This document shows positions 21,203 through 59,376 of a stretch of 64,000 nt of DNA, piece by piece. Each line of letters starts with the position of its first letter. Position 1 is the first letter of the stretch. The notes below the pieces were generated by a model that was not told the origin of the DNA, made no database searches, and saw nothing but the letters and a program-made list of their open reading frames with translations. This DNA is from Tachypleus tridentatus (Eukaryota; Arthropoda; Merostomata; Xiphosura; Limulidae). The position numbers were made by a program, and so were the translations under genes. The DNA is taken from NCBI RefSeq assembly GCF_004210375.1, contig NC_134834.1, positions 141,703,009 through 141,767,008 on the forward strand. The letters run 5' to 3'.

Positions 21203-22252
21203 TTACATCATAACAAAACTATTTCTTAGAAAAATATTTGTCCAAAGTTGACTGCGCATATTTTGATTTTTTTTCATATTATACAATTTCCTATAACTAG
21301 CAATCACTTTTTCCAAATTTCTGTGGACTTCCATGCTTCTTTCCATATTAGTATCGACATTTAGATACAAATCCTTGGCAGCTTCAACAAGTTTAAATCC
21401 TTCTTCAAGTTCTTTTATAGTGATTTCTTCACCCATATTTTCAGCTGTTTCACCCTCTTTATCTTCAGTTTCTCCAAATGCACATTGCTCATTGAGTTGA
21501 AGATAATTTTCGCTTAATTCTTCTACATGCAAATCAAGTAATACTTGCACATTTTCTGTATCCATGTCAAAACATACGTTACTTCCAATAGCAGTTATCT
21601 CTTTAATTATTTTGTCCATGGGACTGAAGCCAAGAAAATCATTTGCACAATTGGACAAAAGATATTTCCAAACTGCTCACATATTGCTGAAAGTAACTTC
21701 TTGTATGAAAGTTTAATGTTTCCAATGGTCTACTTTATATAGTATTCCTTCCAAAATTCTGTACATGAAAGTACCTTTTCTCCTGATGTTGCTTGAAGTG
21801 CTTGAGCAAAAGTCCTTCAAAGATAATATGCTTTGAATGATGCAAAAGTTCCTTGGTCTATTGATTGCAATAATGATGTTGTATTTGGTGGTTTAAAACA
21901 CAATTTTTACATTTTCATTCAAATCTTCCAAAGAAGTATGATGTCCTGGAGCTTCATATAACAGCAAGATCTCTTTAAAACTATGGTTATTATTCTTGTC
22001 AGAGACACACTGCTATAACATGTGAGTCCCACGGTGACTGAGCACACACTGAGTCTGACTGTCATTTGTACATATTTTATTTAAAGCAGTTGACACGATC
22101 TACTTGTAACTCGAGTTTTCCAGAAATTTCCAGAAAGATCTCATGGTAATTGAATAATTACGCAGAAAAAATAGGAAAAGAACACAGTTTTCCCAAATTG
22201 TGGTAACTGAATTTCGAACTGATTGAAGTAGCGTATAGCAGGGTTTACCTGT
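21203..22252 (-). pseudogene. Tigger/pogo-type DNA transposon, internally deleted
   Basis: On the minus strand from about 21960 the reading shows the DDE region: LQDIILLWKI, then PPNTTSLLQSIDQGTFASFK and AYYL, matching the Tigger 'PPNTTSLLQPMDQGVI..FK' block. A 151-codon open C-terminal part (21658-21203) has the acidic ELSENYLQLNEQ and ITIKELEEGFKLVEAAKDL segments typical of Tigger tails. At 22250 a TA-flanked CAGGTAAACCCTGCTATACG looks like the 5' terminal repeat. It is followed after only about 170 bases by the catalytic domain, so the CENP-B-type DNA-binding half is deleted. No right terminal repeat was found. Confidence 0.85.
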
Positions 22253-26620: not shown

Positions 26621-27870
26621 TGTCCATGTAAGTCTGCAACATCTTTGATTCAGTTAACTACCCAACAATCTTAATAATAATAACAATAATCAGTGCAATT
26701 TTCTATTTTTTAATTAACAACCACCAAAGGGAAGGCAGCCAGTCAGCAACATTCTACCACTCTTATAACCATATCTTAAATTGCAAAGAATACTTTTTGG
26801 TAACAGACAGTTCTGAATTCCAGTGCTCTATCACAGAACCAAAGCAGGTTTGAGGAATGAACTAAGGCATCTTGAACAAAAACGTAATAATAATAGTTTA
26901 GTACTCATGAAGAGCTTTTGGAATGCTTATTTATTGGCAATTCAAAATGGAAACTAAAATCTACTTATTTTTTAACAACAAAAAATGTATTAATTAAATA
27001 TCCTGCTTCACTACAACAAAAGATTTCAAAATGAAGAAAGATGACAAACTAATCCAAACTAGACCAGCTATTCAAACTACTTAATTCTAACATGCCAAAA
27101 AATTAAAGGTTGCACATAACATGTACAATATAAATACATTTTAAATGCTAAACTGCTGTAAGCTAGCCACTTAAATCTAAAAACAACTAATGAAATATTT
27201 CTCTATTTTATGTGACTAGAAAATAGGTTTTATGTCAAAATCTCAACTTCAACAAAACACACATTTGAATCTTGCATATGACTTAGTGAGTTGACCAAGC
27301 TACAGATGAAGTCGGATAAATTTTTAAGCAATTTGTTTGTGACAACAATAATTCTCTGTATATTTATGAAAGCAACTCTCCTGCTTCCCGTATCTTTCTA
27401 GAAAATGAATCCTGAAAAAATTATAATGACTTCCAATCAGATGATACAAACCATTTACAAAATGGTAATGCAGACTGGCATGTAAGTAAAGGAATACAAA
27501 CACACTGATATATCTATATACAGGGTGGTGCAAAGTTGAGCCACATGAGGAATTTATATAAGAAAAACAATGTAATCACATTTTTGTTTATTGAAGTAAA
27601 TGTTCAAATCTGCTAGCCATTAAATTTGAATCAATAAGCATAGTGAAGTTAATAGCCAGTAATTCAAATATATAATTTAATAAACTAAACTATAATTACT
27701 TTTTTTTATTGTTTCACAATCTCTATACAGAGTGACTTTTGCACTATTCTGCATACTGGTGGATGTAATTAATCACAGCAGGAGTATTGTGTGAAAATAC
27801 TTATAAACACTAAATAAACCTTATATGTACCAGTATATATGACTTATATGATAAAAACATCTGTGCTTAC

Positions 27871-28570
27871 GATCTAGGCCACCGATGTACTTCATGGTGA
27901 TCTCACAATGTCCCCAAACTGCACTAACAACAGGATAAAGTTTCTTCCCTTTCAGTCCACGGAAGGCTACACCTAAGTACTGACCATCCACCACAAATGA
28001 TAAAGTGCCCTCATCCATGTCTAAAACTACTACAAAACTATCTGGGACTACAAATGTTTCATCAGACTTCAAGAAACAAGGGTAAGTGATACCAGAATTG
28101 TTCTTCACATCATGGTACAGCTTGTTTCGGCCTAGGTCCCATCCCCATGATTCTGAATTACTCCCTACAAGGGACTGGTACCCAACACAATGTAGAGGTG
28201 CCTCACGTGTGGCAACACCCACAACAGCATGAGTTCCTCTCTGCCTTGTGCTCCAGTGAATTTCCCAAACATGTATTCCTCGAGTATAGCCTATCTTCCC
28301 ACGAATGCAGTCAGTGCTCTGGGCAACTGGATGCCTATGGAATGTTAACTTGTCTTCATCCTTCACAAATATATTGATGGAACGATCATCTGAATTCCAG
28401 GAGTGCTTTACTTGCTGCTCAAGAGTTATTAATGGCATGTCTAACAAAATATCCAATCTAGCAGGCCGTTGAAATTCTTGGTTTATGGCCTGAGCTACAT
28501 AATGAGAAGGTCCCAATGTTTCTCTGGTAATTGTCTTAACACCAACTGATGCCTTCTGCCCCATATTCAT
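27871..28570 (-). CDS. SPSB1/4-like SPRY domain SOCS box protein (Gustavus), exon 1
   Basis: This exon encodes most of the adaptor. It opens [20 protein letters not shown]; the second Met gives MGQK, the start used in vertebrate SPSB1, so either ATG (28570 or 28564) is plausible. In-frame TAA codons lie upstream (about 28592). Residues about 30-60 hold [20 protein letters not shown] and HSWN, and about 60-230 form the B30.2/SPRY domain with [51 protein letters not shown] and [18 protein letters not shown]. Coding ends at GLD plus one base before the GTAAGC donor at 27870. In the family, the SPRY domain binds short substrate motifs (such as those of Vasa, Par-4 and inducible NO synthase), and the SOCS box hands them to Elongin B/C-Cullin-5 for ubiquitination. 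The 28147-28377 plus-strand frame is a shadow. Confidence 0.97.
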
Positions 28571-28859
28571 TGGATCAGAGCAGAAGTGTTAATAGTAGAT
28601 TTCAGATATGGTGACACTAGAGCAGCTGGCTAATAGATGATCCATTGATTGTGAGAGTTGGACCTGTAATCATACCGAGAAGGTTAGCAGTCTGATGTTA
28701 CAGGTAATTTGATAAAGTCTTTTTACTGGCATGGTCTTGAAGGGGCTGTATTAGATAAATAAAATTCACAGCCAACACTGTAGGGAATCACAGGGAATAA
28801 AAATTTGAAGAAATCCACATTGACATCCTTGTTTCCTTGACTGATGATCTTGTCTACAA
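28571..28859 (-). other. Probable 5' UTR part of the SPSB coding exon
   Basis: On the minus strand TTATTCATTTCCATAG at 28860 is a good acceptor candidate, about 290 bases before the start codon. An alternative is GTATGATTACAG near 28665. Stops in all relevant frames before the ATG agree with untranslated sequence. The transcription start is therefore further right. Confidence 0.45.
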
Positions 28860-44267: not shown

Positions 44268-44303
44268 AGATGACTACAGAAGAGAAATGTGCTTTTCGTG
44301 AAG
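44268..44303 (+). CDS. ureG: Putative UreG exon carrying the start codon
   Basis: The pyrimidine-rich acceptor GAGTTTCCTCAG is followed by AG and then ATG at 44270. Twelve bases short of forty codons are not needed: the exon is tiny, encoding MTTEEKCAFRE plus one base, and ends at the donor G|GTGAGA (44304). The left-over G joins the first two bases (TT) of the 59243 exon into GTT and continues in frame to GSMQPVHG. The matching phases and good splice signals support it, but so short an exon could occur by chance. The alternative is translation from the ATG at 59251 with this as UTR. Confidence 0.45.
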
Positions 44304-45539
44304 GTGAGATTTTAAATGGTATCTTTCTATAAATGCTTTTAAATATGAAAATAAAGTTACTGATATGTTTATCCTAGATATATTTACCTACTGTGTTCTT
44401 TTTATTTTATTAACAGTGAAAAGAGTTACCTTCAATTTCACGTTTTGGGAGTAAAATGCAAGCTAAGCTAACTTATGTGCAGATTGTCAAATGTTAATAA
44501 GGTGGTGTATTACCTACATTTCTCATTAAGTAAATTGATAAACTAAATTTTTTTTTCATTTATCATTAACATTATGATGGGTCTAACAGTGAATTCCAAT
44601 CTTTTATATATGCTTATTTTGAAATCTTGTTTTAACTTCCTGTCTATTTAACATCATTAAAAATTTGAAAGCACAAGCACATTAATTCCATAGAATGTTG
44701 CATCACAATATTTTACAAGCCAAGTTTCTACTTATATGTCCATCATACACTTTCAAAAGTTATTTGTGTTATTTGAACTCTCATGAAATGTTTGTTACTC
44801 AGGTTTTAAAAATACTATTACACATCTAGCACTTGAGAGCTGTTGTGAATTATTGAACATTATAAAAACATAAAAAATGATAAGAAGCTCTTCTAAATCA
44901 TTTACTGAAATATCATAAATGAAAGTAATGTAGATTTACCAAAGAGAAACCTTGTCTTATTAATCTAGTATGTTTTTTAGGAATGTTAAGTACAATGTGC
45001 TGATGACATTAAACTCTAATATTTATAGCAGTATTGAGGATACTTAGGTATTACAGAATGACTTGGATTAGTTGGAAGGTTGGACAGATAATTGGCAAAT
45101 AAACTTTGATTTCAAGTCATACTTACTTACTTCTTGCACTTACAGCTGTTACTTTACTGCCATTTTCCTCCTTTGCCCATCTAACCATTGGTCCAATTTT
45201 TTCTTGCATGCTCCATTCATTTATACTTCACTTGATTATATTTGTCTTGTGACATTCAACACCTCTATCAATGCACTTACTATCCTGGTACTGTGAATAA
45301 GTCACTTACTCAGATAATATTATCACTTTTTCTTGACAAAGCATCACTTCTGGGTTTCCCAGTGCTGTGATCTTTGGAGATACTTTTAGCATTTTTTATG
45401 TTATCTAGTTGATTTTTATAAATAAAAATTTCTGTTATCAAGCCAAAGTATGGTATGAATTCCCAGATCATTATTTTAGGCACACAGGCAGTTCAGATCT
45501 CTCCTATTCATTTTTGATATCTAGCATCATAGACATGCG
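44304..45539 (+). other. Intronic DNA, nothing recognised
   Basis: CpG-poor and AT-rich. Short open frames (45072-45296, 45409-45636) have no recognisable content. Confidence 0.35.
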
Positions 45540-45816
45540 TGCCATTTTTCCGCTGAAACGCGGATTTCCCGCGGTTTTCAAACGGCCAGCGATCACCCAC
45601 GAGATTCGTGTAAATTCGAGGAGAAAATATGAGTGATTTGGGGGCCGGGTAGGTGGTTTTTGAGGAGAAATCGTATTTTTTCAATGTTTATTGCAGAAAA
45701 ATAAAATCTGACCGCCATCTTGGAGGCAGTCTTGTTGCAGGTCTCGTAGTCTGGTATCGTGTGCATACCAGACGATAAAATATTCTCTACGCTCCAAAGA
45801 AACAACAGCAATTGAA
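45540..45816 (+). promoter_or_regulatory. CpG-rich leader with YY1-like site upstream of an unidentified ORF
   Basis: This is an abrupt CpG-rich block (GCTGAAACGCGGATTTCCCG, AAACGGCCAGCGATC, GGGGCCGGGTAGG) in CpG-poor DNA. CCGCCATCTTGGAGG at about 45711-45725 matches the YY1 consensus. No TATA box is seen. It could be the promoter or 5' UTR of a retroelement or of a nested gene. Confidence 0.4.
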
Positions 45817-46116
45817 ATGTTTAAAAGGAAAGATGTTCATTTTGATCCTGTAGTAGACAAGAGAATGTGTAAGGACATTAGATCAGCAGCTTCAAAGTAT
45901 ACCTCAAAGCTGAGGGAGAATCAGAAGAAAAGGGCAGAAAGGCTTGAGGCCTATGGTTCTGTGAAATCTGGCCCAGCCACCTTGGCTAAAAAAAAAGTCC
46001 AGAAAGCCGCAGAGGCACAGAGAGCTGCCCATTCAGAGAAGGAGAGAAAAAAAGCTCGGAAGAGAGCACTGGAAACCCTTGTCTCGAAAAAGAGGAAAGT
46101 AGCCAAGATTGATTAA
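45817..46116 (+). CDS. Unidentified lysine/arginine-rich ORF, 99 codons
   Basis: The frame MFKRKDVHFDPVVDKRMCKD ... KKRKVAKID has codon use and G+C unlike the flanks and no internal stops. It begins with a purine at -3. Residues about 25-45 and 60-90 are charged, alanine-rich and probably helical or coiled (NQKKRAERLEAYG, KVQKAAEAQRAAHSEKERKK). The C-terminus LVSKKRKVAKID contains a KKRKV-type nuclear localisation signal. I do not recognise the family. It could be an exon of a mobile element's own protein, given the repeats and GC-rich end that follow, or a nested retrogene. It lies inside the inferred UreG intron in the same sense. Confidence 0.5.
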   Translation: MFKRKDVHFDPVVDKRMCKDIRSAASKYTSKLRENQKKRAERLEAYGSVKSGPATLAKKKVQKAAEAQRAAHSEKERKKARKRALETLVSKKRKVAKID

Positions 46117-46125
46117 AGGAAATTA

Positions 46126-46790
46126 AGTGATTTGAAATTTGACTGTAATTTATGCAGAAGAGCAGAAGTTGATATCAGTGACTGAAAAAACATTTTATTA
46201 TTATCTGCAGCATACAGTGCCAGTGGTTTATTTTAAAGCATATCATTAATTTTATTTTGAAGCAATGTCAAAGCTTTCCTTGATTTGCTGTTTCAGTTTG
46301 TATTGTGAAAGAATGAAAAATATACTGATATTGAGGTACCAGTAATTTACTGACAAGATTGTATAGATGAACAAGTTTTACTGTAGGTAGTCATGTAGAG
46401 TAATTTTAAGTAATTTGAAATTTTAATGTAATACATGCAGCAGAGCAGTAGTTGTTGATGTCAGTGACTGTACAAAATTTAATTTCTGAGGCATATCACT
46501 GATATCAGTAGTTTAATATTGAACCATATCAGTAGTTGAATTTTTAAGCAATGTCATAGCTTTCCTTCATATGCTGTTTTAGTTTGTATCGTCAATTTGT
46601 GAAAGAATGGAAAATTCACTGACATTAAGGTACCAGTAGTATAATGACAAGATTGCATAGATGAACAATTTGAACTGTAGGTAGTCATGATTAGTCAAAA
46701 GAGTAATTTTATGTGATTTGAAAATTGTTTGGAATATATGCAGCAGAGAAGTAGTTATTGGCAATGACTGTAAAACATTTAATTGGCTGC
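46126..46790 (+). repeat. Diverged tandem repeat of about 290 bp behind the ORF
   Basis: Units start at 46126, 46411 and 46712 with AGTGATTTGAAA/AGTAATTTGAAA/TGTGATTTGAAA. Each continues with ATGCAGCAGAGCAGTAGTTG-type words; the first two also share AAGCAATGTCA-AGCTTTCCTT, GAAAGAATG-AAA, GAGGTACCAGTA, GACAAGATTG.ATAGATGAAC and ACTGTAGGTAGTCATG. The third unit is partial. They look like a repeated 3' UTR. Confidence 0.85.
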
Positions 46791-47214
46791 ATACCAGTAG
46801 TTGATGATGATGATGTTATTGATGACAAAAAGGATAATAATGAAATGATTTGTATTTGAAATATTTACTGAGTTATTTTGGCTTTATTAACTCATATTAC
46901 TAATATATTTTGATTTAGAAAAAATTAAACTGAATAAATAGCAAATAAACAATCTTAAATTTCATTTATTTACTTTTATTTTATTTGTTAATTTTAGATA
47001 TTTTGATATATCTTCTAAAATGAATGCAAATTAAAGAATAAATCAATCTGCTAAAACTGTAAATGAAAGTTATAGTTTTATTAGTTTGATTTAGTCTTTT
47101 AATTTCCTTTTGTTATTTTATATGATATATATTGTGTACTTTGCCAACATTGCAATGTCAAAAAACATAAAGAAATTATGTCCCAGATTGCACCAAATCA
47201 CACCAAATAGCATC
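46791..47214. other. AT-rich DNA between the tandem repeat and the GC-rich end
   Basis: No gene seen; probably part of the same element as the repeats. Confidence 0.35.
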
Positions 47215-47320
47215 AATTTTTAAAAAATTTCCCAGGGGGGCATGCCCCCGGTCTCCCCTAGTCAGGCCCGGCTGCGCCGCGCTGTGGCACCTCTGGCGCC
47301 AGGCTATATACCTTTTCCTC
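47215..47320. repeat. GC-rich palindromic block, possible transposon end
   Basis: GGGGGCATGCCCCC is a perfect 14-bp palindrome within AATTTCCCAGGGGGGCATGC. It is followed by CTAGTCAGGCCCGGCTGCGC and CACCTCTGGCGCCAGGC. It stands out sharply in AT-rich DNA. With the CpG-rich leader at 45540 it could bound one mobile element of about 1.8 kb. Confidence 0.45.
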
Positions 47321-47539
47321 TTTTTTTCATAAATGTCTTTGGCATGCCTGCATAGAACAGTTGGGCATTGGAGAGTTGCTCTGAATTTAGACTCTCAGTG
47401 GTCCTATTCATAGTGAGGTGGAGATGTATATTCAGTACAGCTGCAATTTAGGATAATCCTAAACCTTCTGGAGATAATGTATTTGCTATACCTTCTTTTT
47501 TAAATTCTGTTATCTTTTTAGAGCTCCTTTGGATAAACT

Positions 47540-47640
47540 TATTGTGATAAGTTTAAAACTTGCAATACTGACATTGAGGATTCAGTTCCTTATAGTGGAC
47601 ATAACAGATAGTCCAATGGTGTTTTTACTGTGACAAAACA
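47540..47640 (+). mobile_element. Degraded tRNA-derived SINE, family B/C
   Basis: A B-box-like GAGGATTCAGTTCCTTATAG is followed by TGGACATAACAGATAGTCCA and then TGGTG..TTACTGTGAC, the order seen in the better copies. The A-box end is poor. Confidence 0.5.
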
Positions 47641-48733
47641 TATCTGACAAAGTGTTCTAAACAACAGTAATGTGAACAGTTTTTAAAAGAAATAAGAAAG
47701 GAGGTCACTTTTAGATAGGCTGCTTTTAATTTGCTTTTCAGTTGATCTTTTGAGAATGTGATGTTTTAAGTTTTTCACCAGTTGCTTTTGAATGTGCACT
47801 TGCTCACTGTAAGGCCTAAGAACAAATATTTAGTTTTCTGTCCATCCACGAATATTGTGGTTCACGCAGGAGGTTTATTGCTAAGTTACATAAAGGGACA
47901 GCTTTGCCTTATCTGCCATGGTTGTAAGAACTATGCTTTGTAGCCCACTTCTGCCAGGTTGAAGTATATCCTAACTCTCAAGTAATACATCTGCTCCTCA
48001 AAATTAGGGGGTTCTAAGGTGGTACTTGTAATTGCCCTGCATAAATCACTGCTTCCTGGAGAGATGGTAGTAAGTCTAAGATGTTACAACCCTCAGGATC
48101 ACTACCTTCATTGATGATAAGCTGGAACCTTTGTTAGCATGCACATTTTTTCTATTGTTAGCTACTACATTCATTCATGTTATTGTTGTCATTGGCATCT
48201 AACTTTCATCAGCTCTTATGGTGTGTCAAAACTCCACTCCTGTTCAAACATTTTGAATCCCTGACATCAGCCCCTTGGTACATTGGAACCCATTCTTCAC
48301 CACCATTGTCCATTCAGTCTGTAGGATTTCCTTCTGCTGCAAATATTTGGATTTTGAGACTTAGTTCTATGGCTATTAGTTTTTTTGTTTTGGGGTCTGG
48401 TGGAAAAAAGAAATAGGATCATGCTATTAATTTTGAGGTTTTATTCCCCTTGGCTGTTAGGCCTGAGAAGACAGGAATTTGGTGTCCAGTCATTGATTTT
48501 CATAATAAGTGTCAAAATCTAGATTGTTTAAGATTCACAAATGACTCACTCCTCAATTCCTGGATTCTATTTTCAGAAACAACTAAGACAGGGTTCATTC
48601 TCAGAGTTGAAACATCTATTCTTGTTTTGACTCAATATGTTGTCAATACAGGTTTTTTTCTCTGTGATATATCTCAGTTAGGGTCAACTAACTCCTACCC
48701 AGCTCTTTGCTATGGAACAGAAAGCCCCACTTT

Positions 48734-48857
48734 CACTCACCTCTTCTGTCCTCTGCTGGTACAGCAGTAAGTTTATGGATTTACAATGCTAAAATCAGGG
48801 GTTCAGTTCCCCTCAATGGACTTAGCAGATAGCTATAAGAAAACACTCACCTCTTCT
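48734..48857 (+). mobile_element. tRNA-derived SINE, family C, with 14-bp target-site duplication
   Basis: The insert (48748-48843) has CTGCTGGTACAGCAGTAAGT, a B-box-like GGGGTTCAGTTCCCC and GGACTTAGCAGATAGCTATA-AGAAAA. It is flanked by exact CACTCACCTCTTCT at 48734-48747 and 48844-48857. It splits the Jockey LINE and is therefore younger. Confidence 0.92.
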
Positions 48858-50044
48858 CGCACTACATGGATGGTTTTGTTTCATTTGGGAATGTGGACAA
48901 CACTGAAATCCCTCATGACTCTGTGATAAGTACACAGGATATCCTTTCAATAGTCTTAATTAGACTAAGGAATTATATACATAAACATCAATTCACTGGA
49001 TTCACCAGTTTCCTTATTCAGGATCAGTCTTCAGTTTTGAAGGATTGTTAGGACACTCCTAAGATATGGGTATCTCTGCTACCACCTCATCCAGAGATTT
49101 TCTCTTCACGAATGTCTCACTTCAGGGATGGGATGCAACAGTTAGGAATTCCAAGGCCTATGCATGGACAACAAGGCTTACTACACAACATTTTAGTCCT
49201 TCTTGCTCTTAAAGAGGTGGTGACTCATGGTCTGTACTTATTAAGGGAAAATCATAAAGCATCACTCCAACAATTCCATGGTGATGTTTTGCATTTCATA
49301 TCAAGGGCCACCTGGTCCAAGGCTACTCCTCATTTTCAGACTCTGTATTCTCGCTGATATTCAAAACTGACTGGCCCATTTCTCATTAACAGCTACTTCA
49401 ATCCAGTTTTTCTGGATACCAGGCCACGTTGGTATTTGTGGGAATGCGCTTGCAGACATGGCAGCTAAATCTATCTGCTCTGGCACTATCACCACTGTGC
49501 TTATTCCGTATATGGACTATGGTCCTGTATTCAAGGCTCAGCTCCATGCCAGCTGGCAGTTCACTTGGAGTGAAAAACGTGACAACAAGCTTTTTCAAAT
49601 AAAACCCTACGTTGGGCTTTGGCCATCTAGCTTCCGTAAGGTTCGGAAGGAGGAAGTTGTTCTAACTAGACTATGCAATGGTCACAGTTTTTTGACTCAT
49701 CATTTTCTTTTATCTGCAACTGATGCACCAGTGTGTAGTTTGTGTAACATTCAAATCACTATCAGCCACATTTTACTTTCTTGCCATCATTACAACTCTC
49801 AATGACGGCACTATTTTAAACATGTTTTGTCCCAGGGTTTGTCTGTAACATTGGACAGTGTTATTGGTGATGGTGACACTGTCCACCTTGATAAAGTTTT
49901 TAGTTTTTTAATGGCCAATAATCTTTTTAACCTCATTTAAGTGTTTGATATTTATTCATTACACCTTTTTAATTGTGGTTCCCTTTTCAGAGTCTCAATC
50001 TCTCTAGTTCAATTTGACATTGTAAACTGGCCAGAACATTAAAT

Positions 50045-50830
50045 AACTCGACACCAGGACTGGAAAGGCCAACTTCAGGTGATTAACACTGCTGTTTGAA
50101 CTACTCGTTAGTCATCCTGGTGAGTTGTTATTACACTTTTGCTGCATGTCATTTAACACTTTTATTACTTTACCTTTTAGTACTGGCCATAATGACACAT
50201 AACCAGGACAACAAGAAAGACCAACTTCAAGTGACTGACGGTGATTCTTATACTTACCTGTTAGTCTTCCTGGCGGGTTATGATCATTACCATTCTGCTA
50301 CAGGAAGTCCTTTACAACTTTGTAGACTGGATGTCAACATTGGTTTTATGCCATTTTCTGTTTTTAATTGCTGTTTTGTTTTTACCTTTGTTTCTTTTTA
50401 CAAATGTTACTACATTTACTTTACTTTTACCTTTTTACAGGACATTTGGCTAATTTTTATTATGATTTGGCTATATGTCTTTTAACACTTTTCTTATTTT
50501 ACCTTTTGATAATGGCTGTTATGTCAACATAACCCGGAACCAGAACTGGAAAGGCCAACTTCAGGTGACTGACGTTGGTTCTTGTATTTACCTGTTAGTC
50601 TTCCTGGCGAGTTATGATCATTACCATTTTGCTAGAGAAAGTCTTTTACAACTTCTCTTACTCTGCTTTCTCTCTAACATTGTAGACTAGGTGTCAACAT
50701 TGGTTTTATACTTTTTCTGTTTTTCAATTATGTTTTACCTTCATTTCCTTTTATGTATTTTACTACATTTAATTTATTTTTACCTTTTTACTGGACATTT
50801 GGTGCAGATAGCCTAGCTGCTTTGTGCCAC
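50045..50830 (+). repeat. Tandem repeats in the Jockey 3' UTR
   Basis: Three units start with an ACCAGGAC(TGG)/AACCAGAACTGG block at about 50050, 50200 and 50535. Each holds CCAACTTCAGGTGACTGACG (or a variant) and CTGTTAGTCTTCCTGGCG-GTTATGATCATTACCATT. The first unit is about half the length of the other two (about 330 bp). TGGATGTCAACATTGGTTTT and TTTTTACTGGACATTTGG also recur. Confidence 0.88.
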
Positions 50831-50860
50831 AAAACACTAAATCAATCAATCAATCAGACC

Positions 50861-53077
50861 CTGAATATTCTTTCTTGGGACATCTCCTGTCATATCACCT
50901 TGTACTATTTTGCTATGCTGCACAGGTAATAACTGTAGTAATAGAAAAATTGTATCTATTGAAACAAATTCCCTCAACAGAATAGATGCAACATTATAAG
51001 GTTGTCTGATTGACTGGTTCTCATTTTGTAATACTAATGATTTGTTTCAACCAATTATTGGGTCCTGTTGATAGCACTGAATAGGCATCTACACCCTGGT
51101 TTCTGTTTCTGTAGTACCTCTGGAATTGCCCACCTCTTCTGCTTCCTCTTTGGCTATCTCTGTAGAGGCAGCCATGATCTGACATGGTAAAACTGGCTAT
51201 CCAGAAGCTCAAGCTTCAGGCATGAGGTTATACAGTTCTTCACACAGTATTGAGGTTTAACTTCTAGCATTGCAGTATGATTGTCACAGTCATTGCTTAG
51301 TCCTGTGATTTAAAAACAGGAATGGCACACACATCAACAGTGATGTGTGGAAAGAAAGTCAAACCATCTTTGATTAGAAGTGCCAACCATAACTCTTTTT
51401 TAACCTGGCTGTTAGTGTTTTGCATCTTTTACAGTCTCCTTGTATAAGATGGTTTTGTCAACAACTCTTTGATACTTGAGACAATATTTCTTTGACTTCC
51501 TCTAGTTGCTTTGTATCCTTATTCCAATTCATTCCAGTTACCAACTAGTTGTAGTATATTAAAGTTACATTACATATGCTTTTTCAACACTCAGTTGTAA
51601 TCTAATTTGCATATGCCATGCATCACCTTCACCTGAAGGTTTATTTTTGTTGCTATAGAGCTAGAGACATCAGCAGTCATATTGGGTTTTACTGTTTGTC
51701 CACAAGATGCTTTATCATTCTGCTTATGTTCTCAAACCTGTTCTTTTTTCCTGAGACACTTTTCATCAATTCATCTTATCACTATTTCTCATTTCTGAGA
51801 CTGATCAGAGTTTGATCATTCATTATGTCCATCGAGAGTAAGCTTTGAAGTTTTGTTGCCTGAACTAATGTCTTTAGAGATGTTAGATAGTGACATTTCA
51901 TTCATTGAAATCATTCAGTGTCCAAGAATTTATTCCCATTTACCTTGACAAGGTGGGTACAAATTTGTTCTATATTACTTATTCTGATCTCTCTTTGTAG
52001 GTGAAGAATCTTCTGTTAGTCATGTCTAATAATATTTGTTAACAATTCTATTTCCTTAGCTACCAGTTTGAACTGCTTGCTGAAGGACATTGTACAGGCT
52101 GGCATATATAGACCTTCTATACTATTTTATCTTGCATTATTTGCATGATTCAGCAGATTCTTCATCTGGGGGTGCTTGACTAACCCCTGTAGCTATCTTA
52201 ACCACTTATGCTAGATTATACAGATTTGTGAGTATTTTCATTGCTATGCTTATCTCTTCTTTGCCTTTCATAGTTTCCAACTTCTTTTCACAGGATCCCT
52301 CTCTGTGGTAAGTGTTGCTCAGGCAGGTATGCTTTTATCCCACCAATTGTGCAATAGCAACTAATAATGTAGTATAATTTGTACAGGCTGTAACAAGCTC
52401 TGTTGAAATGAGGTGTTCTATAAGACCACATGTAGAAGTTGACTGGGTAATATTACTATATTGTGCTGTACTGCCATTCGTGGGCTGTCATAAATGATCC
52501 TGCCCTTCACTGCCAATCATTAGGTTGAACAGATCTGGGTCAGTTTTCTTTTAAAAGTTTAGGGAACTTGGTTCACCTATTGCACTGTTTCCAGAACAAT
52601 TTTCTTGAGGATTTCTCAGTGTGCATTACAATGCAGGTTCTACAAATAGAGCTAGGGAGTTCTTACCACATCTGGTTTTCAGTCACTGAGATGGTAGACA
52701 GAGGTTTTCCATCAAAGTGTTAGAGTGAATATTTCACATTTTTGGAAAATTAGGTAAAGTTGGGGGGCTTTCCTGGCCTGATTGCTGGATGTTTTCCCCA
52801 GATGTTGGCAAGAGCAGCACCATTCTACGCAGGAGAATGCTCATAGTACTTGTTCAGATTTGACAGTCAACTATTCAGTTGGATTAAGCATGGTTCTTTT
52901 TTTGTTTGATATTGATTCGGTACATTTTTCACAGAAGAAGGCCTACTGTTTCCTCATTATCCAGAATACACAGTGGTCCCATCATGAGTCCTTGGTTGAG
53001 CACAGTTTGTTCCACATCCTTTCCATAATTTTGGAGACAAGTGGAATTTACCTTACACACTTAGTTGGGAAGTAAGA
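50861..53077. other. Unassigned DNA
   Basis: No firm feature. A short minus-strand frame (51212-51021) has an arginine/glycine-rich RGSRRGGQFQRYYRNRNQG segment that recalls RNA-binding tails of retroelement Gag proteins, but nothing around it confirms this. Other frames are uninformative. Confidence 0.3.
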
Positions 53078-53246
53078 ATGTGTGTTCCGTGATGATGAGA
53101 AAACCAACTTGTAGAGAAAAATATATATGTAAGAACAGCTGGTATGGGTAGAGAAAACTCTATGTAGAGGACAAACAATGTTTTGATCTTGTTTGCTTCT
53201 CTACATAGAGTTTTCTCTACCTATACTAGCCGTTTTTACATATATA
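53078..53246. repeat. Short Penelope-like fold-back
   Basis: GGTAGAGAAAACTCTATGTA-GAGGACAAAC and GTTTGCTTCTCTACATAGAG-TTTTCTCTACC are inverted around TGTTTTGATCTT. The left flank on the minus strand reads ATATATTTTTCTCTACAAGT-TGGTTTTCTCATCATCACGG, the terminus seen at 2.1 kb. The hammerhead-like region is deleted in the centre. Confidence 0.8.
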
Positions 53247-53789
53247 AGGATGTGTGTTCATAATTCCAGACTGGATTAGTTATGTTTACTCATGTTGAGT
53301 AAGATGTACAAGATCCTGTCATTAAGTGGGGTGTAAAAGACTGAAACAAGCTAGAAAAATGAGACCAATGCTTAGATGGGCAAAGGAAGAAACCCTGGCA
53401 GTTGAGTTATAGTGTTAATGGAGGTAAGTATTATTGGAAATAGATTTTTGATTTAAGAAAATGTTAATTTGTAGTTAGTGCAGTATTAATTTGGTTAATA
53501 TTTAACTTGTATTGCTATGGTGTATACCTCTCACTGATGGGTTATTTTAATTACCTATTGAAAGTAATTCAACATCCAGCTCAAGTAACAATAATAAATT
53601 AATGTTTTTACTACTTAAACATGTACTGTCATAAATTTGTTGTAAGCATACATTGCAAATGACTAATGTAAAACAATTCAGCATGTACAAAAGAACTGCA
53701 ATAGCTCACATGTTGATTGAGCCACTCTCTGTCTTGAAATCACCATACATTCTTTGAGTATTTGATTTAACAATGCACAATTCTATTTC

Positions 53790-55560
53790 TATATCATGCC
53801 ATCAGAAGAGGGATGAAGAACTATTGTCCTAGTCATTTTAATTGTACAACTTACACAATTCTGCAAACAAGCCTGATTCAGAATTTCATCTCTAATCTGA
53901 TTGGAGCTCCATAGAAACACCAACTCTTGAGACAAATTTCTTATGTGAGTCTTCTCAAAAGAGTTTAGGGATAGCACATGCTTCTGGTCTATCAGTGAAG
54001 TCATTTATCACATCCAAGCTGTACCAAATTCCACTGTTACTTTGTGAAAGAGGGTCAAGCACAGCAATAGCAGCTCTCTCCAGTGGTATTCCAACACACT
54101 ACTGCTGTATCTGCTCTTGCTTTTTCTTTTGTGGTTTTTGGACCATTTTGGTTCTCAGAAGAGTTCATGTTTTTTACACCAGTTTTTCCACAGATTCTCA
54201 GCACTAAACATAGCAGAAGCATCTTTTATTAATTTCAGTGTCTTCTTAACACTGAAGTGTCCAATTGTTGACATATTTTGAAGATAACTAGTATCTTCCC
54301 ATTTTTGACATAATAGGTCCTCTCATGAGCATGAGGAATACCACTGTTTCCAAGGCATAATTATTTTCTAGCTGTATGATGCATTGATTTACTATGAGGG
54401 TCTCTCTGCATTATTCTTGAGACACTGAATAATTAGTTTCAAACTTTTATCCTTTGCCTGAGCAACTTTCAGTTGGGTGTTGGATCACATAATTATTTTT
54501 TGATGTGGATGTCACATCTCAAATTAAATTTTGCCTGTATATGAAACTGGCTGTCTTTTCTATCTTGTGCTTCACTCTTCACACATTTTTCTCCACTCAT
54601 AATTTACACATGATTTTTCAGATAATATACCAGTATATTCATGATTCCATCCAGAGTTATGTATAATATTAAAATTGTACTTTTGGAGTTTTTGGAGCTG
54701 TCTTGCTATTTGGTCTTCTTCATTAAAAAAATTCAGCATTCACTTTAAAAGTTACATGATCTGTTTGGAGATCTGTATCAATATGTAAATAATGTTGTAA
54801 GTGACTTAGGGCTTGAACAACACTTAGTATCTTCTTTGGAATGCACAGTACCATCTTTTTTTTTTTTGCATTTATTGTCTTATTATAATAAGCAACCACA
54901 TTTTCCTCTCTATTGTTTTTGTGAAAAAACTACTCCCTCTGCAAAATCACTGGCATCTATATCTAAAATGAGGGAACTTCTAGAGTTAGGCATTACAGTA
55001 CAGCAGGAGTATTGGTCAATTCCATTTACTTTAGCCTGATTCTCATGTCCTTATATAGTATTGGAACTATATCATAATCTGCAGTGCAACAAAACTTATT
55101 TGTGATATAGCAATATTTGTAGAGTGTGATATAACATTAGAGAAATATTCTACAAAATAACATTAGTAAGAGCACAGTTCAAGAAATATCTTTCCTTCGT
55201 GCAGGTTTTTTGGTGTTGGCCAATTCTGTACAGAGTGAATTTTAATGGATCTATAGACACTCCTTTTCTGCTAACTATGTATTGCAGGTAACTCTCCTAT
55301 TGATGGAATGATTCACACTCCTTGGTATTCTGCTGTATAAAACTACTGACTGATTGTGAGTAGCTCAGTGGTAAGTCTGAAAATTTGTGTTGCTGAAAAA
55401 CAGATTTTGATTCCATGGTTGACATAGCACAGATAGCCATTGTGTAAATTTGTGCATGACAACAAAAAAACAAGGTTGATATGTATACTTGATAGCTGTT
55501 ACAGTTTTCTGCTGAAAAGCTACTTGATGTTGTCAAGACTGGTTGGCCCTTTGGGATGGG
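53790..55560 (-). pseudogene. Ty3/gypsy-type pol fossil (RT end, RNase H, integrase)
   Basis: The element is read on the minus strand, high to low coordinates. Around 55230-55000 is the RT C-terminal stretch with an NWPTPK-like region; near 54960 LILDIDASDF is the RNase H start. 54900-54600 has KTINAKKKRWYCAF and DQIARQLQKLQKYNFNIIH, the usual end of the domain. About 54250-54200 has GHFSVKKTL of the integrase zinc-binding region, and 53950-53790 has LVFLWSSNQIRDEILNQ with a final LHPSSDGMI, the 'HPQSDGQ.ER' position of the integrase core. Multiple stops and frameshifts and a SINE insertion make it inactive. No LTRs were located. Confidence 0.85.
55346..55472 (+). mobile_element. tRNA-derived SINE, family B, inside the gypsy fossil
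   Basis: GTGAGTAGCTCAGTGGTAAG (A-box), a B-box-like GATTTTGATTCCATGG, GACATAGCACAGATAGCCAT and TGTGTAAATTTGTGC followed by A-rich sequence match family B. It lies in antisense to the gypsy pol reading. Confidence 0.75.
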
Positions 55561-58500
55561 CAAGAAGAGAGATGACTTGTTGCTCTGGAATATTGTTTCA
55601 AACTGAGCACAGTAAGTCTCCCATTATACCTTCCCATCATAGTCCATTGGTTTATTAATTGACCTATGTTCAACTGGCTAGAATAATTCTGGATTGGGTT
55701 GTTTTGTGACTGGAGTAGTTCAGAAAGATCTTGTAATCACAGATTGCTTAGCAGGAGTGATAACATGTGTAGACCATATTTAGTAGGTAATGGTGACTTG
55801 TGTTGAAATTCTTTGGCAAATGCAGAAAGTGGATCTTTTCATTTAATAGTTCTTTTTCTAAGTGTTTTATTCTGTGATTGAAATTATATTCTGACTCATT
55901 TACCTTCTTGTTATGATCTTTCTGCACATTATTAATGTATTTTTGTACTTTATTGGTGTATTTTTAACTTTAATTTTCTCATTAGTCTTTCTGTACTTTT
56001 AGATGTTCTATTGTATTTCACATTTGACTTCACTGATGATCTTGTGTATTTCTTCACTTGTGTTGTATTCTGTCTGTACATCTCTAATAACTTTGTTTAA
56101 ACTGTTTTCATTATCTGGTAGTGAAGTACTGAACATGACAATACATTGTGAATCAAGCCTGTGCTCAAGTTAGCTAGCATGTATACATAAAAATGTGCAT
56201 AATTTTTTTTAGAGATGTCATTTTTCATTTTGCACATATCATTTATAAATACACTACCATCACTGAGGTGCACTAAAAACAGGTATGTCTACTTATTGCA
56301 CACTGTGAAAATGACTATTTCTTTTACATAGACACTTGCATTGTGCTTAAAAAGAAACAAATCACAATTAGGAATGTAATGATACATTTAATTATTGATA
56401 GATTACAATAATAGATGTCTCATTGCATTATTGGTAAATTTCAGAATTTATAAAAATTACCAATAATACCTTCAGTTATTAATGTTTATTTATAAACTTC
56501 ATTAATTTCTAAGTTCTTTTATTTAAACCATTTCTTAGTAATTTCCCTTTGTTTAAGACTGGTTTTAATGTTTCTACTCTTCTTTAACCTGAAGAGCTTA
56601 TTTGTCACATCCACCATTAGCAGTGTTGCTTGTACAATGGACCAAACCTCTATTGGAGAATTAGAAAATATTATAATTCAGATTTTATTATGTGTATCTT
56701 TATGAATATTAGCAATCTTTCAGTAAATATGAAAAGTGTGTTGTGTAAGAAGTTCAGATTATTTTAAAAATAAAATATTTGCATGAAACACTAATTTCAT
56801 GATAGGGACAACTTCTATCTATTTTAATTTTAGAGTTTCATATTTTATTTGCACAATCTCTAGAATTTCCTTAAATCAACCTGAGAAGTATTTTTCAGTA
56901 ATGTATATTTTTGTCTGTAGATTCTTTTATACAAATAGCACATACTTGAATCTTCTATTTTTGATGAAAACCTAGCACATGGATCTTATACTGAGCTTAT
57001 GAATTTTGATGGAACCAATAAACCCACCATAATTTGAAGTGATACTGAGTAAAACATTGAAAGTAAAGTAATGCCCATTCTTATCAAAAGTGATTTGGTA
57101 CAGAATGACTGGTTTAGGTTTAAAGATATTGAAAGGTAGATATAAAAAGTCCAAAACTGAACATTTATACAAAAGGATTATTGAACTCCATAGTGATCAA
57201 TCTCCTAACATTCAAAATTTGTCAAATAGCTTTATGTTTTTGTGTAACAAGTGTTGATTGTGAGAGTATTTTCTGTACAAAGCAAGCTCAAGGCAAAATT
57301 CAGGTATTCTTTGAGAGCTAAAGAGATTGTTTAATGAGAATTGTAATGCTAGACCCAGAAATTTTATGCTTCAAATTCTATAAATAAAAAAAACAAAACA
57401 ACAAACAGAAGAAGGGTGAGGCTTTCACAACCATACAGACAGAGAATTAAGAAAATTACATAAATAAATGTGTAAATTGTGTGTTTTTGTAGTACTTCCA
57501 TAAGGCCAAATGCATAAGAAGGTAGTAGTGACACATTCAAACTTATAAATGGTTCAATCACTTCATAAACCAGTATACAAATCCTCGTCCTTGATACTGA
57601 ATTAGTGACCACCTTTGGAAGGTACTGATAGAAGTGAAATTTCATCATTGCCTTACTGATTATGGCAGAAATTATTTTGAGCTATTCCTGATTGTTAAGC
57701 CCTGCAAGATAGATCAGGGTTTTTATTTTTTATACTTGATTATTGTATTTCTCCAATATTGAATGTTCAGGCTTATAATCCTAACCAAACTACACATTCA
57801 GGCTCAGTTGAACATCTGTGTGATAATGAATGATTGAGCTGTCTGACATTTCACCCATCTTAATGACATTTGATGATATATTTACCTCTACCAATTCTGT
57901 ACTTCCTACTTCGTATAGATGTGGTCTTGCACTGAATGCTGTTCCACTAGTTAACTGCACACTTCCTTGATGTCACATTCCATGGGCTTCCTCTTTTTGA
58001 TGCTGTTTTTGGATAGGAGCAGATCTTTGTAATCTCTTTCTTTGCACTAGCATCTCCACAATTTTTGCTGTGGAATTTTAGCTCTTTATGATTCAGAAAG
58101 GTGAGTAATGTTGCTGAAGATAACATTTTCCTTACCTGAAAATCTCTCTTGGATAGATACTCACCTTTGTACATCATCTCCAATCCTTCCTTTCCATTTC
58201 TGCTGAATTTAGTTTGCCTTGTCAATTATGATCCTATGTTTACACAGGGAGAATACTGTGCATGGAGGATATGTTGCCCTACTATTGATAAAGGATTATA
58301 GTCTAATGATTACTACATCATAGTCTGACACAATGCATGTTCACACATGTAAGAGTGGAAATTTTATTCAAGGCTGGTGTCATGTGCAGGTATGTTTTTG
58401 CTCGTAGTAGTCCTACAAATTCTGTGTTCACTTGTAAAATGTGCATGGATTTATTCTGGATTTCATAAAAATGAAATAAAACATTAATTGTACCATTTAT

Positions 58501-58789
58501 ACTGACTCACTTAGCTCTTCAAAGAACCTTGAATTACATATTTTTTTCTGTTCCATATTCAGAAGTGAAAAGCCCATTTCTCAGTTTTATCATTGCTTAT
58601 CTCATTTTTGTGGATCAATGAACATGTTGGTGGCAGAATGAATAAACTTGTACTAAGCAGATCTTCAATGGTAATATCAACCTTCTTTTTATTTCTTATA
58701 ACTGGGAAGGATTCATACCAGTTAGCAAATGATTTGGGGTTAGAAGAACTTTAAAAGCTTTTCCATACACAACCTGCTGATTAGTCATC
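55561..58789. other. Unassigned DNA, possibly decayed gypsy 5' part
   Basis: If the fossil at 53.8-55.6 kb were complete, its protease and gag would fall here on the minus strand, but no motif survives that I can identify. The 92-codon minus-strand frame 58225-57947 (many Lys/Arg/Ser) has no recognised domain. Confidence 0.3.
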
Positions 58790-59050
58790 TAGTTTGTACA
58801 ATATTTCAAGAGAGGACATTGTTCTGACTAGACTCCACATGACATATTTTGACACATCATTTTCTTCTACAGAGCAGTATATCAAAGACAACTGTGCATT
58901 TTACTTTTATACCATCATTATAACACTGAGTGATGGAATTGTTTGTATATATACAAGTTTGGGTTACCCTTTTGTGATTGTGCATTATAAATGTTAAACT
59001 TGAACATGTTTCAACTAATTATTAGCCATAGGCTTTTTAATTCAATTTAA
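58790..59050 (+). pseudogene. Second, degraded Jockey-type LINE 3' fragment
   Basis: ISREDIVLTRLHMTYFDTSF aligns by eye to KEEVVLTRLCNGHSFLTHHF of the 49.6-kb copy. Both continue at DNA level with ACTCATCATTTTCTT/ACACATCATTTTCTTCTACA, then ATACCATCATTATAACACTG against TGCCATCATTACAACTCTCA, and then ATTATTAGCCATAGGCTTTT TAA. The fragment ends about 190 bases before the UreG exon. Confidence 0.75.
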
Positions 59051-59242
59051 ATTTTTAATATTTTTCTTTTTTTGGAAAATAAAGATATGTTTTATATAGT
59101 GTAATTCTTAGTATACATGTATATATATTTATATTCTTCAATGAACTTTATATTACTATTGTCCAAAATAAAAAAAAGGTTTGTAGAATTAACCAACTCC
59201 AATAAAACATGTGAATTTTTTTTTGTATTTTCCATTGCACAG

Positions 59243-59376
59243 TTGGATCTATGCAACCTGTTCATGGTTCTCATCATGGGCACAGTCATGAACATGATCA
59301 TACACATGAACATATGGAAACACCTGGAAGTTACTTGAATAGAGATAAATACAAGGTCCGAGAGGATTGGAATCAG
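59243..59376 (+). CDS. ureG: Urease accessory protein UreG, histidine-rich N-terminal exon
   Basis: The pyrimidine-rich acceptor TTTTCCATTGCACAG ends at 59242 and the donor CAG|GTGAGT starts at 59377. The in-frame reading is GSMQPVHGSHHGHSHEHDHT, then HEHMETPGSYLNRDKYKVRE and DWNQ. UreG of fungi and plants starts with just such a histidine-rich metal-binding segment, followed by 'METPGSY..R ... R.F..RAFTIG(I/V)GGPVGSGKT'. The exon stops immediately before the expected 'RAFTIG'. UreG is a GTPase that works with UreD/UreF to deliver nickel to urease. The P-loop and later motifs are not in this window, so the intron is at least 4.6 kb. A histidine-rich stretch alone could come from a zinc transporter, but the METPGSY block argues for UreG. 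The overlapping frames at 59092-59338 are shadows. Confidence 0.75.

Follow-up and report, generated by a model that had tools for sequence, protein, structure and literature searches.

Maturation of a nickel urease is uncommon among animals, and has already been reported in outline for a few of them. The available text of one study places urease in Nematostella, Strongylocentrotus, Branchiostoma and the tick Ixodes (PMC3073912), and that of another credits Acropora, by KEGG annotation, with urease and an accessory protein (PMC3750612). A 2009 survey, as far as its accessible part extends, lists urease in two marine animals, in which nickel use was unclear, and in none of 19 insects; the ureases of Aplysia and Strongylocentrotus are treated there as orphans, lacking a nickel transporter (PMC2667541). 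Nickel delivery is described for Helicobacter, where, in the portion of the source available, UreF and UreH bring two UreG molecules together, a single nickel is bound jointly by their Cys66-Pro67-His68 motifs, the UreG dimer is released by GTP and nickel, and the nickel comes free when GTP is hydrolysed (PMC3792862). No report of urease in a horseshoe crab was found in a literature search, which covers few subscription journals.

The window, that is, the whole 64,000-nucleotide stretch of horseshoe crab (Tachypleus tridentatus) DNA that was analysed (C10:141703009-141767008), very probably ends within a nuclear UreG gene, in the intron on the downstream side of its first demonstrable exon (Table 1). 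This exon, at 59243-59376, is the earliest UreG exon that can be shown from the predicted reading of the DNA. It lies between an acceptor, ...ccattgcacag/TT, and a strong consensus donor, CAG/gtgagt, that leaves a 2-base overhang; its translation, GSMQPVHGSHHGHSHEHDHTHEHMETPGSYLNRDKYKVREDWNQ, presents a His-rich stretch followed by METPGSYLNRDKYKVREDWNQ. The splice sites, the overhang and the His-rich reading had all been described in an earlier note on this DNA, and all are present. Searched alone, the exon retrieved nothing from the PDB at E 10 or from Pfam at E 1, and in the 2.17 Gb genome (205 contigs; 8 candidates scored) it matches itself alone. Spliced alignment carries its product colinearly into the N-terminus of Hymenobacter UreG, and it joins the P-loop exon in frame and without a stop.

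Table 1. Exons and candidate starts of the UreG gene, in window numbering
Feature	Position	Strand	Evidence or remark
UreG coding exon	59243-59376	+	translation, single genome match, spliced alignment, stop-free join to P-loop exon
Proposed ATG exon MTTEEKCAFRE, candidate start	44268-44303	+	ATG 44270, donor AAG/gtgaga, phase fits
Rival ATG exon MIQK, candidate start	58088-58100	+	same phase, stronger donor
In-frame ATG (MQPVHG) inside UreG exon, third candidate start	59251-59253	+	third codon of the exon's frame
UreG exon 2	67674-67798	+	P-loop exon
UreG exon 3	68685-68781	+	joined frame
UreG exon 4	69167-69314	+	joined frame
UreG exon 5	77099-77202	+	joined frame; GC donor
UreG exon 6 (last)	83846-83977	+	VMECDANVMRQ..., TAA ending 83977

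To the right of the window an exon beginning RAFT(I/V)G had been predicted, and one is present, starting at C10:141770682 (67674 in window numbering), 3.7 kb beyond the window end and in phase with the exon at 59243. Four further exons follow it, and the stop lies about 20 kb beyond the window end. The gene structure predicted from the sequence has six exons separated by introns: the exons span 24.7 kb of the 194.6 Mb contig C10, and the introns measure 8297, 886, 385, 7784 and 6643 bases, four being GT-AG and one, at the fifth donor, GC-AG. The joined frame comprises 245 codons from the first full codon of exon 59243, with no stop before the TAA. A UreG profile gave four matches genome-wide, all of them at this one locus on C10, on one strand and in order, and one UreG locus was found in the genome. 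One of the model matches has three stops, because it runs from an intron into the third downstream exon. The last exon is divergent, being recovered by tblastn over 200 kb at E 0.001 with Hymenobacter UreG and at 0.31 with Acinetobacter UreG.

Each exon by itself scores under the cut-off of the UreG model, and the joined product exceeds it. Minus its last exon, this product scores 232.2 bits against TIGR00101 (cut-off 204.2), whereas with the HypB model it reaches 51.5 bits and stays below the cut-off of 121.2; the whole product gives 121.9 bits with Pfam cobW (cut-off 20.7). In a PDB search the UreG chains 4hi0 (7e-60) and 5xkt (5.7e-58) came out on top, and HypB chains were next, at 1.3e-10. 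The P-loop, the Cys-Pro-His nickel motif, ESGGD and NKTD are retained, with the His-rich stretch ahead of them. The identification as UreG made in the earlier note is thereby upheld, by the P-loop exon in phase and by a joined product over the TIGR00101 cut-off.

The UreG frame is open from exon 59243 to the stop and has three candidate start codons. The earlier note had placed the start in the small exon at 44268-44303; its ATG, donor and one-base overhang are present, whereas its membership in UreG is unproven, such exons being found at chance level. When the donor, scored with a donor matrix, had to reach 8 and the phase had to match, six ATG exons were counted in the 59 kb upstream of 59243, and two of the six, those at 44270 and 58088, lie within 20 kb; the whole + strand holds eight in 64 kb, a rate that predicts about 2.5 for every 20 kb. 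As the UreG start the exon at 44268-44303 is thus possible and no better than chance, and it was rejected as a demonstrated part of the gene: given that chance rate, and a closer exon with a better donor, it is possible but unproven. The closer exon, at 58088, lies 1.1 kb before the UreG exon, has a donor score of 12.31 versus 10.93 for that at 44270, and when joined to the UreG exon reads MIQKVGSMQPVHG.

Several other frames lie in and around the gene. On the - strand at 27821-28588 is a 255-codon open frame with a SPRY domain (75.4 bits, cut-off 26.3), presumably resembling an SPSB-type gene. The + strand carries at 49371-49805, within the intron proposed by the earlier note, the RNase H-like end of a retroelement frame (E 0.00046, under the Pfam cut-off). 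Two more open frames, one of 157 codons at 21203-21676 (-) and one of 134 codons at 45712-46116 (+), fall into no confident Pfam family. In the last UreG intron (L012, 7216-7314 and 8099-8197) an identical 33-residue frame occurs twice, with starts 883 bases apart, a local duplication, and downstream of ureG there is a long reverse-transcriptase-like frame (L014, 2689-3660), which we take to resemble Penelope-like elements.

A tree of UreG was also suggested in the earlier note. That built here comprises 77 rows, 76 of them bacterial and one from the crab. The bacterial rows derive from 82 loci (80 from a scan, 2 from plasmids), of which 6 were dropped by a motif filter; the scan used six patterns, one of them taken from exon 59243-59376, and the best 80 of 110 loci were kept. 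The crab protein falls with bacteria into a clade of 40 rows (support 100/100), and a narrower subclade within it (15 rows, 99/91) unites the crab with Verrucomicrobia, Planctomycetes, Acidobacteria and one Myxococcales MAG; the crab has the longest end branch, 0.94 changes per column, and its exact place is unsure. The tree thus answers where the crab falls among these rows and does not speak to the origin of the gene, be it old eukaryotic inheritance or transfer, because the crab is its one eukaryote, crab-derived patterns fed it and the best 80 of 110 loci entered it; the clade may be no more than the eukaryote-like form of UreG. RAFT precedes the P-loop in 39 of the 76 bacterial rows, a fraction biased by the scan pattern taken from exon 59243-59376 and drawn from the best 80 of 110 scanned loci plus the 2 plasmid loci; all 39 of these match a loose pattern for a PG/AG-type motif, and 36 have four or more His. 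A His-rich, PG-containing extension of UreG is shared by many of the loci L051-L091, from Verrucomicrobia, Planctomycetes, Latescibacteria, Gemmatimonadota, Hymenobacter and others.

Whether urease, UreD and UreF exist in the same genome was a question raised in the earlier note, and all are present, with products over the Pfam cut-offs. The four genes lie on four contigs, UreG on C10 (194.6 Mb), urease on C13 (275.9 Mb), UreD on C12 (138.5 Mb) and UreF on C6. A urease search gave three matches on C13, and spliced alignment against a bacterial query with an in-house program yielded a stop-free urease model whose 23 exons descend from C13:170148678 to 170094111; an 11-base exon in its beta-alpha linker is probably an alignment artefact. 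The gamma, beta and alpha domains of the product score 147.5, 121.2 and 180.7 bits, all far over the cut-off. Its best PDB chain is 3la4, presumably jack bean urease, at 1126 bits, versus 787 bits, for the alpha part only, with the top-scoring chain from a urease of several chains. The motifs HVH, KLHED, HTDT, GGGHAPD, CHHLD, SRIR and SSDSQ, which we take to hold the nickel ligands and catalytic residues, are the same in the alignment with 3la4.

UreD and UreF are partly resolved in the predicted gene models, as two and three exons respectively. The two UreD exons, on C12, score 123.6 bits when joined (cut-off 27); spliced alignments past them hit improbable exons and stops, and were discarded. 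The UreF profile PF01730 found no match in the genome at E 0.001, and at a looser limit it found one exon, at C6:40932401 (E 0.0033). A bacterial-type UreF probe matched at C6:40931830 and 40928268 (E 2.77 and 2.84), and these weak matches count because they are the sole two listed genome-wide and are arranged in order no more than 4.3 kb from 40932401; the exon at C6:40931830 adjoins that at C6:40932401 and was also found by spliced alignment. The three pieces read AFPTGGFTHSLGCEAALQCGYITNK, VQGRSLLSTCC... and AVIFGAICGVLKIPVSEVLYMFMFGMLRTLVASMVRLGKIVGSLE, and joined they reach 51.4 bits (Pfam cut-off 23.3). The Pfam match is confined to the second and third pieces (residues 25-99), so that the first is placed by a weak match (E 2.84, 59% identity) and by its position. 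In light of these genes, the horseshoe crab seems, judging from the predicted products, to keep a nickel-urease maturation system.

Two further partners were searched for. The UreE_C profile gave no candidate and no match in the crab genome, with the control positive in 1 of 14 genomes, and the profile of the NicO importer, PF03824, gave no match at E 0.001 with two candidates scored, the control being positive in 5 of 14. Both searches go exon by exon, and the NicO limit is the one that missed UreF; a short or diverged exon can therefore escape them, as UreF first did. An allantoicase search found nothing in the crab and equally nothing in the 14 controls, and is void. Exons of the arginase family, which includes other enzymes too, gave 20 matches in the genome, and urea can therefore probably be made. 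Two sets of these exons on C13 (6343337-6422672) and one on C19 (68760196-68780497) have equal or similar scores, and are either recent copies or duplicated assembly.

The genome also contains 25 matches to arthropod hemocyanin exons. Across 133 residues one of them (L040) shows 88% identity to hemocyanin subunit II 1lla, which we assume to be Limulus hemocyanin II, and it is 62% identical to 3ixv, presumably a scorpion hemocyanin chain; the remaining copies show 56-62% identity to 1lla. These identities very probably mark the animal as a horseshoe crab, and probably one other than Limulus. Two exons on C13, L041 and L033, lie 0.6 Mb apart and are very similar, with an apparent frame shift in L041.

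It is very improbable that ureG reached the assembly through contaminating bacteria or was recently acquired from a symbiont. Within the collections searched its nearest matches are bacterial, at up to 66-68% identity, and a eukaryotic relative of the crab protein could not appear there, as these collections hold no eukaryotes. The gene itself, however, has six exons with splice sites over 24.7 kb, introns of up to 8.3 kb and a place in a contig of 194.6 Mb; its partners on C13, C12 and C6 are split as well, and the urease is a single fused chain whose nearest PDB chain is 3la4. A recent transfer is excluded by the introns of ureG, and the rejection of simple bacterial contamination in the earlier note is borne out by the exons spread through this contig. 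It is scarcely credible, likewise, that exon 59243-59376 is part of a gene upstream of ureG encoding a His-rich zinc transporter or some other non-GTPase. Although His-rich stretches are common in zinc transporters, and the exon alone has no family match, phase and spliced alignment continue through to the P-loop exon, and the same order of His-rich stretch, PG and RAFTVG recurs in UreG of Verrucomicrobia, Planctomycetes, one Myxococcales MAG and others.

The genes might also persist while decaying or being repurposed, UreG for example as a general metal GTPase. The NicO importer was not found (PF03824, E 0.001), the UreG branch is long, and UreF and the last UreG exon are weakly conserved, all of which would fit such a course. 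It is nevertheless unlikely, in that UreG and the urease model are without stops, the nickel and GTP motifs are retained, and all four partners are detected, on four contigs.

The preferred reading is of a nickel-urease maturation system that the crab seems to keep. UreG would be the GTPase that loads nickel into apo-urease together with UreF and UreD, of which Helicobacter UreH is presumably the counterpart. By analogy with Helicobacter, the crab protein would form a GTP- and nickel-bound dimer, helped by UreF and UreD, from which nickel is freed on GTP hydrolysis, and its His-rich stretch may store or collect nickel in place of UreE. The urease, in turn, would split urea from arginase-family enzymes into ammonia and carbon dioxide. 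It is tentatively proposed, with somewhat less than even confidence, that this chelicerate runs a complete nickel-urease system without UreE or a known nickel importer, that the His-rich stretch of UreG stores nickel, and that the orphan ureases of other animals are true nickel enzymes. If so, animals must have an unrecognised route of nickel uptake and traffic. An arthropod that has UreG, UreF and UreD alongside a urease that looks intact is likely to use nickel, and the question of an animal nickel importer becomes directly testable. These genes also point to a urea-to-ammonia route encoded by a marine chelicerate itself.

For animal urease, the earlier note implied more novelty than the published cases leave (PMC3073912, PMC2667541, PMC3750612). 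The crab UreG has in common with bacterial UreG (TIGR00101; 4hi0, 5xkt) the P-loop and the GTPase core, and differs in that its gene is split by introns, it bears a His-rich N-terminal stretch and UreE_C was not found in the genome. It is matched in its His-rich, PG-containing extension and RAFTVG start by the extended UreG of Verrucomicrobiota, Planctomycetota, Kiritimatiellota, Lentisphaerota and Acidobacteriota, and likewise of Latescibacterota, Gemmatimonadota, Hymenobacter and one Myxococcales MAG; these bacterial genes are intronless, unlike that of the crab. The crab urease shares with jack bean urease (3la4) a single gamma-beta-alpha chain and the active-site motifs, whereas its gene, which lies in an animal genome, has about 23 exons. 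Within the animals, Nematostella, Strongylocentrotus, Branchiostoma, Ixodes, Aplysia and Acropora have, by the available text of the sources, a urease as the crab does, Ixodes being another chelicerate. In those same texts urease is listed, with one accessory K number for the coral, whereas in the horseshoe crab UreG, UreD and UreF are each placed in the genome with their exons.
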